A program made the translations under genes and the position numbers. The notes beneath the pieces were generated by a model. The model was not told where the DNA came from and ran no database searches. It worked only from the letters and a program-made list of their open reading frames with translations. A stretch of 64,000 nucleotides of DNA, taken from assembly GCF_027625995.1 (NCBI RefSeq), contig NZ_CP115396.1:2170001-2234000 (forward strand). The letters run 5' to 3'. The DNA is from Hymenobacter yonginensis (GTDB taxonomy: Bacteria > Bacteroidota > Bacteroidia > Cytophagales > Hymenobacteraceae). Position 1 is the stretch's first letter; each line of letters starts with the position of its first letter. Of this stretch, positions 15,122 through 20,651 are shown in pieces.

Positions 15122-15141
15122 GGGCTACTTTTGAGGCCATT

Positions 15142-15292
15142 ATGCAGAGGCGCAGCCGAAGCATCTCGCATACTGACGTTGTGGAAAGTAACCGTCATGC
15201 AGAGGCGCAGCCGAAGCATCTCGCGTGCTGACGTTGTGGAAAGTAATCCAGACATCAGCACGCGAGATGCTTCGGCTGCGCCTCTGCATGAC
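15142..15292. repeat. Palindromic repeat cluster, GCAGAGGCGCAGCCGAAGC family
   Basis: Two direct copies of a 28-base core (15142-15169, 15197-15224; 55-base period) are followed by one inverted copy (15262-15289). Copy 2 and the inverted copy pair over 38 bases (15195-15232 with 15255-15292) around a 22-base spacer. A decayed relative is at 22742-22811. The cluster lies just after the PorP/SprF gene. Confidence 0.85.
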
Positions 15293-15337
15293 GTTCAGGG
15301 GTGTTTGGTTGGTTTTCAACAAATGCCCTCCGGCTAA

Positions 15338-15380
15338 ACAACCTCAGCAACGACGAGACTCCAGCTACTGCGCCTCTACC
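15338..15380. repeat. Decayed GTAGAGACGC-family element
   Basis: AACCTCAGCAACGACGAGAC and the following ...GCCTCTACC keep the flank and both ends of the element seen at 5162-5416, but the inner palindrome is degraded. Confidence 0.6.
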
Positions 15381-15462
15381 TTGTGCACTAAGGGGCTGGG
15401 GGAGCCGGCCAACCGGCCGATTTGGGTACTTTCGCGGCTCTCCCACTCTCTCGCCCGCTCTC

Positions 15463-16632
15463 ATGTCCCGTACTCTTCCCACCATTGTGGGGGCGCAGTT
15501 TTGCTGCACCTCGCTGTGGTTTGCCGGCAATGCCGTGGCGCCCGAGCTGGCGGCGCGGTTTCAGCTGCCGGCCGGCTTTGTGGCCTCGCTCACCAGTGCC
15601 GTGCAGCTGGGCTTTATCAGCGGCACGCTGCTGTTTGCGCTGCTGGCCCTGGCCGACCGGTTTTCGCCCTCGCGGGTGTTTTTTGTGAGTGCGCTGGCGG
15701 CGGCCACGGCCAACCTGGGAGTGCACCTGAGCGGCCTCGGGGCCGAAGGGCTGCTGGCCTGCCGCTTCCTGACGGGCTTTTTCCTGGCTGGCATCTACCC
15801 GGTGGGCATGAAAATAGCCGCCGACTACTACCAGGAAGGGCTGGGCCGCTCGTTGGGCTGGCTGGTGGGGGCGCTGGTGCTGGGCACGGCGTTTCCGCAT
15901 TTGCTGCGCAGCGTTACGGGGCACTTGCCGTGGTACTACGTCACGGGCGCTACCTCGGCGCTGGCGGTGCTGGGCGGGGTGGCGCTGCTGCTGCTGGTGC
16001 CCGATGGCCCTTTCCGCCGCCCCGGGCAGCGGCCCCAACTCACGGTGTTTCTGGCGGGGTTCCGGCAGCCGCAGTTTCGGGCGGCGGCGCTGGGCTACTT
16101 CGGGCACATGTGGGAGCTGTACGCGTTCTGGGCGTTTGTGCCGGTGGTGCTGGCGGCGTTTCAGGCGCGGCACCCGGCGGCGGCGCTGCCGGTGCCGCTG
16201 CTCTCGTTCGGCATTATTGGCGGGGGCAGCCTGGCCTGCGTGGGCGCGGGGCTGCTGGCCCGGCGGCTGGGCCCGGCGCGGGTAGCCACCACGGCGCTGG
16301 CGCTGTCGGGGGCGTGCTGTGTGGCTTCGGGGCTGGTGCTGGGCGGCGGCTCGGTGGTGGGACTGGTGGCGTTTCTGGCATTCTGGGGGCTGGTGGTGGT
16401 GGCCGACTCGCCCATGTTTTCCACCCTGGTGGCCCGGCACGCCCCCGCCGAATCGCGCGGCGCGGCCCTAACCATCGTCAACTGCCTGGGGTTTGCCCTC
16501 ACCATCGGGAGCGTGCAGCTCACCGGCTGGCTGGCCCCGCGCCTGCCGCCTCAGCTGCTGCTGCTGCCCCTGGCCATCGGCCCGGCGCTGGGGCTGTGGG
16601 CGTTGTGGCGGGGAAGTAGGGTGGCAGGCTAG
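15463..16632 (+). CDS. MFS transporter
   Basis: The 389-residue protein has about 12 membrane helices and no soluble domain. Visible features include 'FCCTSLWFAGNAVAPELAAR' at the start, the loop 'LALADRFSPSRVFF' between helices 2 and 3 (the usual MFS motif A position), and 'FLTGFFLAGIYPVGMKIAAD' in helix 4-5. It is a single-polypeptide secondary carrier; the substrate is not predictable. ATG 15463 is chosen because the upstream part of the open frame runs through repeat sequence. TACTTTCG at 15426-15433 is a weak -7 match. It borders the AT-rich island downstream. Confidence 0.85.
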   Translation: MSRTLPTIVGAQFCCTSLWFAGNAVAPELAARFQLPAGFVASLTSAVQLGFISGTLLFALLALADRFSPSRVFFVSALAAATANLGVHLSGLGAEGLLACRFLTGFFLAGIYPVGMKIAADYYQEGLGRSLGWLVGALVLGTAFPHLLRSVTGHLPWYYVTGATSALAVLGGVALLLLVPDGPFRRPGQRPQLTVFLAGFRQPQFRAAALGYFGHMWELYAFWAFVPVVLAAFQARHPAAALPVPLLSFGIIGGGSLACVGAGLLARRLGPARVATTALALSGACCVASGLVLGGGSVVGLVAFLAFWGLVVVADSPMFSTLVARHAPAESRGAALTIVNCLGFALTIGSVQLTGWLAPRLPPQLLLLPLAIGPALGLWALWRGSRVAG

Positions 16633-16774
16633 GGAGTTTCGCTTATATTGCCTACCTACGGTAGATATAGAAGAAAACCCCCACTCGCGGGATAAGCAGA
16701 TATATACAGAATAAAACCACTGTTGCCGATTACAGCAATAGTAATACTTCGCATCATACTAAATCTAAAACCTC

Positions 16775-17647
16775 ATGAGCGTATCAAATTGGTTTGAAAC
16801 TTTTAATAACAATATTCAAATCTCAAACCCAACTGTCGAGACTATAGCTTATAGGTATAAGCGCATGACGAGACAATTGAACAGAGACTTTTGGATTACA
16901 GAATCTGAAACTGCACATAGCCTTTATGTGGGTTCTTATGGACGAGATACAGATATCCATGTTAGTGATATAGATATGTTATTCCAACTACCTTATTCGG
17001 TTTACGAAAGATACAATGCCTATACTAACAATGGACAATCTGCATTATTACAAGCAGTTAAAAATTCAATAGAAAAGACCTACAAGTCATATATGAAAGC
17101 TGATGGACAAGTAATTGTCATAAGTTTTGATGACGGAATAGTATTCGAACTGGTGCCAACATTTATTAATAAAGATGACTCTTATACATTTGCTGACTCA
17201 AACAACGGGGGAAGTTGGAGAATAACAAATCCTAAACCCGAAATAACTGAAATTAGAAAAAAGAATGATGAATGGAATAAAAATTTAAAAAGACTTGCAA
17301 GAATGGCTAAATCATGGAAGGATAAGTGGAGTGTGCCGATGGGTGGTCTTTTAATCGACACAATGGCTTATAATTTTTTGAGCACTTGGCCTTATAGAGA
17401 TAAATCATATATGTACTATGATTGGATGAGCAGAGATTTTTTCAAGTACCTTTCTGGGTTAAATGACCAACAAGATTATTGGCTGAGTCCAGGAGCGAGA
17501 CAGTATGTTTGGCGAAAAGGAAATTTCACAAGCAAGGCTAAACAATGCTATAATCTTGCATTAGAAGCCATTGAAAAAGAAACAACATATCCAACAACAT
17601 CTAAAAGCAAGTGGAAAGAAATATATGGAACAAAATTCCCCTCATAA
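16775..17647 (+). CDS. CD-NTase (cGAS/DncV-like nucleotidyltransferase, SMODS), CBASS-type
   Basis: The 290-residue protein has the nucleotidyltransferase core of bacterial cyclic-oligonucleotide synthases. GSYGRDTDI (residues 53-61) is the G-S nucleotide loop. Asp65 and Asp67 in SDIDM are the paired metal-binding acids, and Glu125 in FELVP sits at the third acid position. A helical C-terminal half (FLSTWPYRDK, 'RQYVWRKGNFTSKAKQCYNL') fits the lid domain. Such enzymes make cyclic di- or trinucleotides on phage infection to activate an effector. The product cannot be called from sequence. The next gene starts inside this one and is probably the effector. No Cap2/Cap3 (E1/E2-JAB), HORMA or TRIP13 genes accompany it. 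Confidence 0.85.
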   Translation: MSVSNWFETFNNNIQISNPTVETIAYRYKRMTRQLNRDFWITESETAHSLYVGSYGRDTDIHVSDIDMLFQLPYSVYERYNAYTNNGQSALLQAVKNSIEKTYKSYMKADGQVIVISFDDGIVFELVPTFINKDDSYTFADSNNGGSWRITNPKPEITEIRKKNDEWNKNLKRLARMAKSWKDKWSVPMGGLLIDTMAYNFLSTWPYRDKSYMYYDWMSRDFFKYLSGLNDQQDYWLSPGARQYVWRKGNFTSKAKQCYNLALEAIEKETTYPTTSKSKWKEIYGTKFPS

Positions 17648-18194
17648 CGAACTTGAAATACTAGAATCTCAACTTCGTGAAAACTACGGAAAGATTGTCT
17701 ACTCCCACAAAACACAAGAGAAATGTGCAGATATTCTAACCAGCAGAAATAACAAAATAAAAAATTCTCAAATTATACTATCTGCATTAGTCACGACAGG
17801 TTTATTAGTTAGGGTATTCAAAGGACATGACTGGGCGTTGATTGTTAGCACAATACTATCCGCATTACAATTTGGCCTAACAAGTTTCCTCAAAGAATAC
17901 AACTTGGGTGAAACGATTCAAAAACACGCCACAGCTGCACTAGAGTTATTAGACATTAGAGAAAAATATCTATCCTTGTTAACTGATGTAAAAGCCAAAA
18001 TTATTACACCAGCTGAAATAGTTGTCAAACGAGAAGAGCTACAAGACAGTCTTTCAAAAACTTATAAAGGCTCACCAAGAACATTTAGCAATGCTTATTC
18101 TTCAGCCCAGAAAGCATTACAAAAAAATGAAGAATTAACCTTTAGTGACAAAGAAATTGACAATTTTCTTCCAAAACCTTTACGCAAGACGTAA
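17625..18194 (+). CDS. SLATT-domain two-TM protein, probable CBASS effector
   Basis: ATG 17625 (MEQNSPHNELE) gives 189 residues and overlaps the CD-NTase by 23 bases; a TTG at 17571 is a less likely start. An N-terminal helix is followed by two closely spaced membrane helices (about residues 47-63 and 69-88) and a long cytoplasmic helical region 'ETIQKHATAALELLDIREKY'. This is the SLATT layout (SMODS- and SLOG-associating two-TM effector). SLATT proteins are predicted to form membrane pores or disrupt the membrane when a nucleotide signal is made, killing the infected cell. The overlap and shared AT-rich composition argue for co-translation and co-inheritance. The exact SLATT subtype needs a profile search. 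Confidence 0.78.
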   Translation: MEQNSPHNELEILESQLRENYGKIVYSHKTQEKCADILTSRNNKIKNSQIILSALVTTGLLVRVFKGHDWALIVSTILSALQFGLTSFLKEYNLGETIQKHATAALELLDIREKYLSLLTDVKAKIITPAEIVVKREELQDSLSKTYKGSPRTFSNAYSSAQKALQKNEELTFSDKEIDNFLPKPLRKT

Positions 18195-18364
18195 GCACAA
18201 ACGCATAATTAATACTTTGTAATAGTGTCACTTACAAGCAAAGACTAGGTATTAGAATCATATTTTGTTTTTTTTGCACGAGGTTTGGGCTGACGGAATT
18301 TTATTAATCACCATCACAAACCTCTCACCTGCTGCCAGTAGTAGATTGACCCACCCACACAAAG

Positions 18365-18397
18365 ACGCCCCGCAACCTCACGGTTACGGGGCGTTTT
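18365..18397. terminator. Hairpin terminator between the island and the paoC-like gene
   Basis: ACGCCCCG (18365-18372) pairs with CGGGGCGT (18387-18394), with inner AACC/GGTT pairing. TTTT follows on the plus strand and CTTTG on the minus strand, so it could serve both convergent units. Confidence 0.7.
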
Positions 18398-18419: not shown

Positions 18420-20651
18420 TTACAGCAGCTTGTCAATCGTAATTGGCAGGTCGCGGACGCGCTTGCCGGTGGCGTGGTGGATGGCGTTGGCCACGGCGGC
18501 GGCTACCCCCAGCATGCCTACTTCCCCAATGCCTTTGGCGCCCAGCGGGTTCACCACATCGTCTTCCTCATCCACGAAGATGACGTCGATGTCGTGAATG
18601 TCGGCGTTGACGGGCACGTGGTACTCGGCAAAGTTGTGGTTCATGTAGCGCCCGAACTTGTGGTCCATCACGGTTTCCTCCATCAGAGCCGCCCCAATGC
18701 CCCACACGACCGAGCCCAACACCTGCGAGCGGGCCGTTTTGAGGTTGATGATGCGGCCGGCGGCAATGGCATTCACCACCCGCGTCACGTGCACCGTGCC
18801 CAGGTCCTCGTCTACCTTCACTTCCACAAACACGGCGTTGTGGGCGTGCAGCGAGTACTGCTTCTGCTTGAGCATGTTGGGCATCGTAGAGCCATCGGCT
18901 TCCACTTTGGCCTCACCGCTGGCCTGCAGCACGTCGCGGATTACCACCGACTGGTTGTGGTCGGCGCGGAGGCGAATCTGGCCGTTGAGAAATTCCACAT
19001 CCTCGAACTTGGCATCCTTGAGCGGGGAGTCGTCCTGCTTCTGGGCCAGCTTCAGGATTTTACCGGCCAGGTCCTGGCACACGCTCTGGATGGCCGTGCC
19101 CACGGAGGCCGCCGTCCAGGAGCCGCCTTGCAGCGGCGCTTCGGGCTGGTCGGTGTCGCCGAGCTTGAACGATACGGCCTCCAGGGGCAGGCCCAGGGTT
19201 TCGGCCGCAATCTGCGTCATGATGGTGTAGGTGCCGGCGCCGTTTTCGCCGGCGCCGCTCAGCACCGTCAACTTGCCATCGGCCGTGATAGAGGCTTTGG
19301 CGGCCGATTTCTGCTGGGTGGCATCCCAGACACCGCCGGCCATGCCCCAGCCCACCAGCATCTTGCCGTCGCGCATGGAGCGCGGCTCCTGGCTGCGCTG
19401 GTCCCAGCCGAACTTGGCGGCAGCCTGGTGGTAGCATTCGCGCAGCTTCTTGCTGGAGAAGGGCTTATCTACGTTCTGGTCGCGGTCAGCGTAGTTGCGG
19501 AGGCGGAACTCCAGCGGGTCGAGGCCGGCGGCGTAGGCCATTTCGTCCATGGCCACTTCCAGCGCAATGCTGCCCGAGGCGGCGCCGGGGGCGCGCATAT
19601 CGAGAGGCGTAAACACGTCGAGCTTGGCAATCTGGTAGCCCAGCTTCACGTTTTCGCACTGGTAGAGCATGCCGCTCCAGTTCACCACATTCTCGGTGTA
19701 GTCCTCGAAGTGGGAGGTTTCGTGGAGGGCATGGTGCTGCAGGGCGGCCAGCGTGCCATCGGGGTTGGTGGCCAGCTTCACAGTCTGGAGCACGTGGGGC
19801 CGGTGGCCGAAGCTGAACATCTGCTGGCGCGTGAGCGTGAGGCGCACCGAGCGGCGCAGCTCCAGCGAGGCCAGCACGGCTAGGTACACCGAGTACTGCG
19901 GCCGCAGGCCCGCGCCGAAGCCGCCGCCCATGTATTCGTTCACCACGCGCACGTCGTCCTTCTTCAGGCCGAACACGCCTACCAGGTAGTTTTTCACGTT
20001 GAAAACGCCCTGGGTTTTGTCGTAGGCCGTAATCTGGCCTTCGCCGCGCCACTCCACCGTGGTGCTGAACAGCTCCATGGGGTTGTGGTGCTGGGTGCCG
20101 TGCACGTACTCGGCCTCCATGCGGTGCTCGGCGGCACCCCAGGCTTTGTCGGGGTTGCCGCGGGGCGGTGGCGGTGGCTGGAAGCCGGTTTTGCCGCTGC
20201 CCGGCTCGTAGCCTTTGGCGCGCTGGGTTTCGAGGTTGGTTTCGTGCTTTTCTTCGTCGTACTCGATGCGCAGCACCGAGGCCGCGTAGCGGGCCAGCTC
20301 AAAGGAGTCGGCCACCACGAGGGCCACCGGCTGCTGGCTGAACTGAATTTCGGGGTCTTGCAGAGCCCGAAACGGCGAGCCGCCGGGTGCTACCAGATCC
20401 TTGTGCTTCTTGTCGAGCCAGGCCACGGAGGGCACGTTCTCGTGCGAAAACACCTGGATAACGCCGGGCAGCGCCAGCACCTCGTCGGCGTGGATCTTCG
20501 TGATTTTGCCCTTGGCAATGGGGCTGCTCACCACGTAGGCATACGCCATGTTGGGCAGGTGGTACTCGGCGGCGTAGGTGGCCGTTCCCGTCACCTTGGC
20601 CGGCCCGTCGACGCGGCTGGTGGCGGTGCCGATATAGTTAGTGGTGCTCAT
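18420..20651 (-). CDS. paoC: Molybdenum-cofactor subunit of aldehyde oxidoreductase (PaoC-type)
   Basis: The 743-residue protein belongs to the xanthine oxidase family molybdopterin subunits. It starts with 'GTATSRVDGPAKVTGTATYA', has cofactor-binding glycine stretches ('EYMGGGFGAGLR', DMRAPGAASGS, 'GGSWTAASVGTA') and ends with GAKGIGEVGMLG. Glu710 there is the catalytic base that deprotonates the Mo-OH ligand. The enzyme would oxidise aldehydes or related carbonyls to acids, passing electrons to the FAD/Fe-S partners. It lies 5 bases after the PaoB-type gene and is last in a three-gene operon. The PaoC assignment rests on the four-cysteine PaoB partner and subunit sizes; substrate is unknown. 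No Mo-cofactor maturation (XdhC/PaoD) gene is in the window. Confidence 0.88.
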   Translation of the reverse strand: MSTTNYIGTATSRVDGPAKVTGTATYAAEYHLPNMAYAYVVSSPIAKGKITKIHADEVLALPGVIQVFSHENVPSVAWLDKKHKDLVAPGGSPFRALQDPEIQFSQQPVALVVADSFELARYAASVLRIEYDEEKHETNLETQRAKGYEPGSGKTGFQPPPPPRGNPDKAWGAAEHRMEAEYVHGTQHHNPMELFSTTVEWRGEGQITAYDKTQGVFNVKNYLVGVFGLKKDDVRVVNEYMGGGFGAGLRPQYSVYLAVLASLELRRSVRLTLTRQQMFSFGHRPHVLQTVKLATNPDGTLAALQHHALHETSHFEDYTENVVNWSGMLYQCENVKLGYQIAKLDVFTPLDMRAPGAASGSIALEVAMDEMAYAAGLDPLEFRLRNYADRDQNVDKPFSSKKLRECYHQAAAKFGWDQRSQEPRSMRDGKMLVGWGMAGGVWDATQQKSAAKASITADGKLTVLSGAGENGAGTYTIMTQIAAETLGLPLEAVSFKLGDTDQPEAPLQGGSWTAASVGTAIQSVCQDLAGKILKLAQKQDDSPLKDAKFEDVEFLNGQIRLRADHNQSVVIRDVLQASGEAKVEADGSTMPNMLKQKQYSLHAHNAVFVEVKVDEDLGTVHVTRVVNAIAAGRIINLKTARSQVLGSVVWGIGAALMEETVMDHKFGRYMNHNFAEYHVPVNADIHDIDVIFVDEEDDVVNPLGAKGIGEVGMLGVAAAVANAIHHATGKRVRDLPITIDKLL

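Follow-up and report, generated by a model that had tools for sequence, protein, structure and literature searches.

In silico analysis of a 64,000-nt stretch of the Hymenobacter yonginensis genome (hereafter, the window) revealed a small AT-rich island whose two overlapping genes encode a CD-NTase and a SLATT_4 protein. We consider it likely that this pair represents a minimal CBASS of a type I-like kind in which SLATT_4 is the effector, that it was acquired horizontally, and that its site is a recurrent cargo slot. Both protein families could be recognized, the catalytic residues are intact, linkage and overlap are conserved, the base composition is foreign, and relatives carry different cargo, or none, at the same place. 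Judged by family membership and linkage, the pair is probably an anti-phage system. The pair belongs to a kind already known, and what is added here is the site as a cargo hotspot; a literature search by titles and abstract starts, which covered few subscription papers, found no study that deals with a SLATT_4 CBASS or with this slot.

The upstream gene (16775..17647, + strand) encodes a 290-aa CD-NTase (SMODS nucleotidyltransferase). The first-pass annotation had named this family from the letters of the sequence, and profile searches bore it out, with an E-value of 1e-50 for SMODS, far above the Pfam cut-off, and 1.8e-133 for the PADLOC cyclase model. The GSYGR motif and the DID acids that it had pointed to are indeed present, at residues 53-57 and 65-67, respectively. 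G53, S54, D65, D67, and E125, which we take to be catalytic as judged by motif, were invariant in all 18 aligned CD-NTases, including that of the window. Against NCBIfam CBASS_cyclase_b the protein gave an E-value of 1.7e-29 but a score of 103.3 bits, short of the curated equivalog cut-off of 200, and was therefore not filed there. Fold comparison placed CdnD and CdnB closest, and the CdnD of P. aeruginosa (6p82, 6p8j, and 6p8u) is among the closest known proteins. Assignment to the CdnD clade, to which both profile and fold pointed, was considered and rejected; since CdnB lay just 1.5 Z units lower and identity was about 20%, we give the enzyme neither a clade nor a product.

The downstream gene (17625..18194, + strand) encodes a protein of 189 aa when counted from a conserved ATG at 17625; the mechanical ORF list begins earlier, at a TTG at 17571. 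The SLATT identity proposed for it was likewise upheld, and the protein can be described as a SLATT_4 2TM effector, with matches to PF18186 (E 1.5e-61; 207.4 bits against a curated cut-off of 27), to SLATT NF033632 (140.8 bits against a cut-off of 55), and to the PADLOC 2TM Effector model PDLC00696 (E 1.1e-72). Two adjacent membrane helices and a helical tail had been read from the translation, and two methods agree with that architecture: the hydropathy profile has two adjacent hydrophobic helices, at about 47-65 and 70-90, and the AlphaFold model is predicted to be all helical, with a helical tail. A Pfam scan of the SLATT_4 protein gave no further domain above cut-off able to bind a ligand, and SAVED, NUDIX, and other sensor domains were absent from it. 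No solved relative was found by sequence or by fold; comparison of the model with the PDB returned helical matches that were all unspecific (best E 0.22), which is no evidence for a new fold.

The SLATT gene had been reported to start 23 bases inside the CD-NTase gene, and this overlap was confirmed. It forms part of a coupling zone (17611..17647, + strand) consisting of a purine-rich stretch and the SLATT ATG within the 3′ end of the CD-NTase gene, and it is kept in relatives: of 17 SLATT_4 loci, 14 have an overlap of precisely 23 bases, the exceptions being L076 (17 bases), L077 (32 bases), and L079, in which the SLATT start was not located. A purine-rich run, as judged by eye, occurred 5′ of the SLATT ATG in most of these loci and would fit translational coupling of the two genes.

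Type I CBASS is described as one synthase gene and one effector gene in the available portion of PMC10419184. At the window's locus, a SMODS enzyme with intact catalytic residues is followed by an overlapping effector gene in the same operon, and the genes on either side are an MFS transporter and an oxidoreductase rather than ancillary genes. The description of the locus as a two-gene CBASS-like system thus stood, as the two proteins match the PADLOC CBASS cyclase and 2TM effector models; so did the reported lack of Cap2, Cap3, and HORMA regulators, as no Cap2, Cap3, HORMA, or TRIP13 gene lies within the island, where there are two ORFs only. The pair has in common with type I CBASS of the 2TM-effector kind a single SMODS cyclase and a single 2TM effector gene in an operon. 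It differs in that its effector is a SLATT_4 protein, all helical in the model and free of SAVED, NUDIX, or other sensor domains by Pfam.

The island stands out by its composition. G+C is 0.34 over about 16.65-18.3 kb. To the left it is 0.66-0.73 and to the right 0.61-0.66, with 0.61 reached already at 18.5-19 kb; across the whole window no other place falls below 0.5 in 500-base windows. An abrupt fall in G+C had been placed at 16640-18290; the fall is evident from the G+C plot, whereas the edges proved to be slightly wider, running from about 16616 to the vicinity of a hairpin at 18365-18394. The only ORFs within it are the two described above (16775-17647 and 17625-18194), both intact and on the + strand. 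On the left, the island adjoins the gene for an MFS transporter (15301..16632, + strand; PF07690, E 1e-22), and comparison with the nearest relatives, G001 and G013, showed that unrelated sequence begins inside the last MFS codons (about 16616). The left edge and AT-rich leader, as delimited by comparison with relatives, extend over 16617..16774 (+ strand), and a portion of the leader is common to G023 and to a second copy in G085, both with different cargo. On the right, unrelated sequence stops near the hairpin (18365..18394, - strand), which is terminator-like, has a 13-pair stem, and follows the gene for a xanthine-dehydrogenase-like molybdopterin subunit (18420..20651, - strand; PF20256/PF02738), referred to here as the oxidoreductase gene. 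The scan flagged this hairpin on the - strand only, and it is retained, with changes, in those close relatives whose edges were compared. Nowhere in the leader was the promoter pattern assumed for Bacteroidota matched in full; the sigma-70 promoter scan is ill suited to this phylum. Of 120 genomes of the genus, 66 gave a match to the MFS gene and 118 a match to the oxidoreductase gene. A neighbouring PorP/SprF gene is 81% identical to one of Hymenobacter volaticus, which makes Hymenobacter the probable genus. For the MFS ORF, the GTG at 15301 that is listed as its start is probably too early; in many relatives the match does not begin before about residue 35-55, and the true start is perhaps the ATG at 15463. 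Upstream of this gene, at 15137-15293, is a REP-like region with a 55-base tandem repeat (93% alike) and a 42-base inverted repeat (98% complementary).

The gap between the MFS and oxidoreductase genes was examined in 30 relatives that have the two together, plus two in which they are split over contig ends; the remaining genomes with the MFS gene, such as G115 and G031, lie outside this survey. An AT-rich island, taken as 200-base windows of <0.42 G+C over at least 400 bases, was present in 27 of the 30 relatives, or in 28 of 31 spanning gaps when the window is included. Three gaps had no such island (G022, G027, and G053), and that of G053 is a bare site, with about 120 bases and one hairpin between the two protein matches. 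If ORFs of 100 aa or more are counted, the gaps contain 34 that are AT-rich, including the two of the window, and these fall into 26 sequence families. Only one of them, 105 aa long and located in the 10-kb G120 gap, is not on the MFS strand (33/34), an orientation bias to be read as descriptive, since the ORFs in part share ancestry. For comparison, 400 kb of a single genome (G001), sampled as 20 pieces of 20 kb each, contained three ORFs of this kind; under a slightly stricter island rule (500 bases or more), 3 of the 20 pieces had an island. G001 also has a 5-kb stretch below 42% G+C (L134, 1-5100), for which the ORF list shows none that is both 100 aa or longer and below 42% G+C.

In close relatives the edges are sharp; divergence sets in within the final MFS codons or directly behind them and stops just before the hairpin. 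The nearest relatives, G001 and G013, have in the same place a gene whose 295-aa product contains a TIR domain of the CAP12/Pycsar type (PF10137, E 7e-40 in the copy scanned, that of G001; the G013 copy is 98% identical). Extra MFS 3′ ends were found in three gaps (G085, G054, and G002), and extra oxidoreductase 3′ ends in at least four (G060, G067, G005, and G036; weaker in G088), as would be expected from repeated recombination in the flanks. Integron-like site-specific recombination was considered and set aside; the edges are sharp, yet no core common to the left and right edges was seen by eye. Among the 120 genomes of the genus there were two CD-NTase matches, each 26% identical, and no close relative of the enzyme. 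The horizontal acquisition proposed in the first-pass annotation is well supported by the foreign composition, by the lack of a close CD-NTase relative in the genus, and by the other genes or bare site found in relatives. The comparison of the locus that was meant to reveal an empty site found one in G053 and different cargo in other relatives. The opposite pattern, in which all relatives have the pair at the same place with host-like composition, was looked for and did not occur.

Next to the pair itself, the cargo of the slot was scanned with PADLOC (29 cargo proteins from 26 relatives). Nine of the 29, in eight genomes, matched candidate-defence models at ≤1e-5 over at least 80% of the profile, namely PDC-S35 (G001 and G082), PDC-S56 (G070), PDC-S42 (G054, G071, and G060), PDC-M19A together with PDC-M19B (G088), and PDC-M04A (G061); PDC presumably denotes a phage-defence candidate. 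As 20 of the 29 had no PADLOC match at 1e-5, the slot is not exclusively a defence site. Among the controls, one of seven GC-rich window proteins and one of three AT-rich G001 ORFs also matched at E ≤ 1e-5, each over a small part of the profile; at a coverage of at least 80% the counts were 9/29 for cargo and 0/10 for controls, and the contrast is clear at this coverage only. Pfam, applied to 27 of the 29 proteins, found DUF3800, RDD, DUF4919, MBOAT, DUF6678, or hydrolase domains in some of them. In relatives the slot holds other foreign genes, a part of them defence-like.

Several further genes recur in the gaps. A GC-richer, toxin-antitoxin-like pair encoding a DUF433 and a PIN-like protein (DUF5615 just below cut-off) was present in 6 of the 31 spanning gaps, those of G082, G037, G054, G022, G067, and G005 (L092, L093, L088, L094, L104, and L108, respectively). 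The gene for a 155-aa lipocalin-like lipoprotein was observed in five (G071, G120, G112, G027, and G025; L090, L107, L106, L097, and L100, respectively). In L084 and L091 the slot is filled by a 343-aa family (64% identical) that had no PADLOC match at 0.01 and, for L084, Pfam matches below cut-off only.

We tentatively propose, without as yet calling it probable, that the genus has, behind its MFS gene, a recurrent and orientation-selective slot. AT-rich cargos that are unrelated to one another and comprise one or two genes, in many cases for defence, would be swapped there by flank recombination without an integrase of their own, and would be co-oriented with the MFS gene so as to extend its transcript; the CBASS pair would then be one plug-in. 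No integrase was found among the cargo proteins scanned, a set that includes little of the 10-kb G120 gap and none of the GC-richer gap ORFs.

The linkage of the two genes extends well beyond this site. A scan of species genomes yielded 18 CD-NTase loci, and a SLATT gene lies downstream in 18/18 (17 SLATT_4-like and one SLATT_6). The SLATT_6 locus, in Pinibacter (L066; PF18169, E 3e-66), has this gene in place of SLATT_4 and has no SLATT_4 start codon within the CD-NTase end; its CD-NTase is 79% identical to that of the window, the highest value among those aligned. Of 395 genomes of the phylum, nine matched the CD-NTase profile and four had SLATT_4, in each case with an adjoining CD-NTase. 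On viral contigs, CD-NTase was upstream of SLATT_4 in 13 of 14 loci, and the remaining one (L161) begins at a contig end. CD-NTase matches occurred in 163 plasmid records, and an annotated SLATT gene adjoined in all eight that were opened. Among these eight, the annotated SLATT of the Arcobacter plasmid was not matched by the window's SLATT at 1e-4 and may represent another subfamily. When five more plasmids were opened from a list of 83 records with SLATT, a nucleotidyltransferase adjoined in three; the SLATT gene of an Arthrobacter plasmid has unnamed neighbours throughout, and a Pediococcus plasmid has a short SLATT gene next to an IS, with no nucleotidyltransferase. One of the three with a nucleotidyltransferase, a Paenibacillus larvae plasmid (L172), shows the reversed order, with the SLATT gene followed by that of a 446-aa nucleotidyltransferase.

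SLATT proteins have been predicted to be nucleotide-responsive pore-formers, according to the accessible text of PMC7159879. In the mechanism that we envisage, the island would have arrived horizontally between the MFS and oxidoreductase genes, the CD-NTase would make a cyclic oligonucleotide upon a phage cue, and this molecule would switch on the co-translated SLATT_4 protein. The latter would oligomerise in the inner membrane and permeabilise it, and the infected cell would be killed or arrested.

CBASS signals activate. In the reverse arrangement, which is Panoptes-like or antitoxin-like and which we regard as unlikely, the CD-NTase would constantly supply a nucleotide that silences a toxic SLATT protein, and phage interference with this nucleotide would release the toxin. 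Panoptes likewise consists of two genes, for a nucleotide synthase (mCpol OptS) and a 2TM effector (S-2TMbeta OptE), and its effector is held off by its nucleotide, as far as the available portion of PMC12657218 describes. Synthase and effector belong to other families, however; Pfam gave SMODS and SLATT_4 for the window's pair rather than mCpol and S-2TMbeta, and the window's effector is all helical in the model. Inhibition has also been raised for the SLATT protein of DRT10 (reverse transcriptase, ncRNA, and SLATT), and deletion of its SLATT gene abolishes defence, in the part of the preprint seen (PMC12632851). What the pair shares with DRT10 is a SLATT-domain protein; the window's island has no reverse transcriptase, the sole partner in it being the SMODS nucleotidyltransferase. 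The tight overlap of the two genes, too, resembles that of toxin-antitoxin pairs. Against an inhibitory signal is a locus of Terrimonas (L080), in which the CD-NTase is without residues of about 44-180, including all the catalytic acids, and a small inverted remnant is left, while the SLATT gene is intact (189 aa, 80% identical to that of the window). A SLATT protein that is toxic without its signal should not persist there, and the locus therefore argues, albeit weakly as a single case in a draft assembly, against inhibition. The Pediococcus SLATT that lacks a CD-NTase is truncated and tells nothing about the direction of the signal.

The numerous plasmid records with CD-NTase matches, the pairs in viral contigs, and the recombinase genes that adjoin some pairs would also suit a role in stabilising plasmids or islands, or in competition between mobile elements. 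We regard such a role as very unlikely, as the pair lies inside type I restriction-modification operons on an Aeromonas plasmid and the Arcobacter plasmid, as in Microcystis it is flanked by the gene for an N-6 DNA methylase, accompanied by a small ORF, and by one related to helicases, and as the slot in relatives holds other candidate defence genes. It is more improbable still that the window carries a decayed or silent remnant of a CBASS-like system; the foreign composition and the lack of a full match to the assumed promoter pattern would accord with this, but both frames are intact and the catalytic residues and the overlap are kept. An activating, CBASS-like pair is thus the reading that we prefer.

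For the genus, the slot offers a short list of co-located AT-rich genes that are candidates for defence functions. SLATT proteins accompany unrelated signal makers, CD-NTases as well as reverse transcriptases; a SLATT protein with a reverse transcriptase is also mentioned in the available text of PMC9122126. The compact pair described here, with relatives in which the effector has been swapped (SLATT_6) or the enzyme lost, would be a test case for whether the signal switches SLATT on or off.
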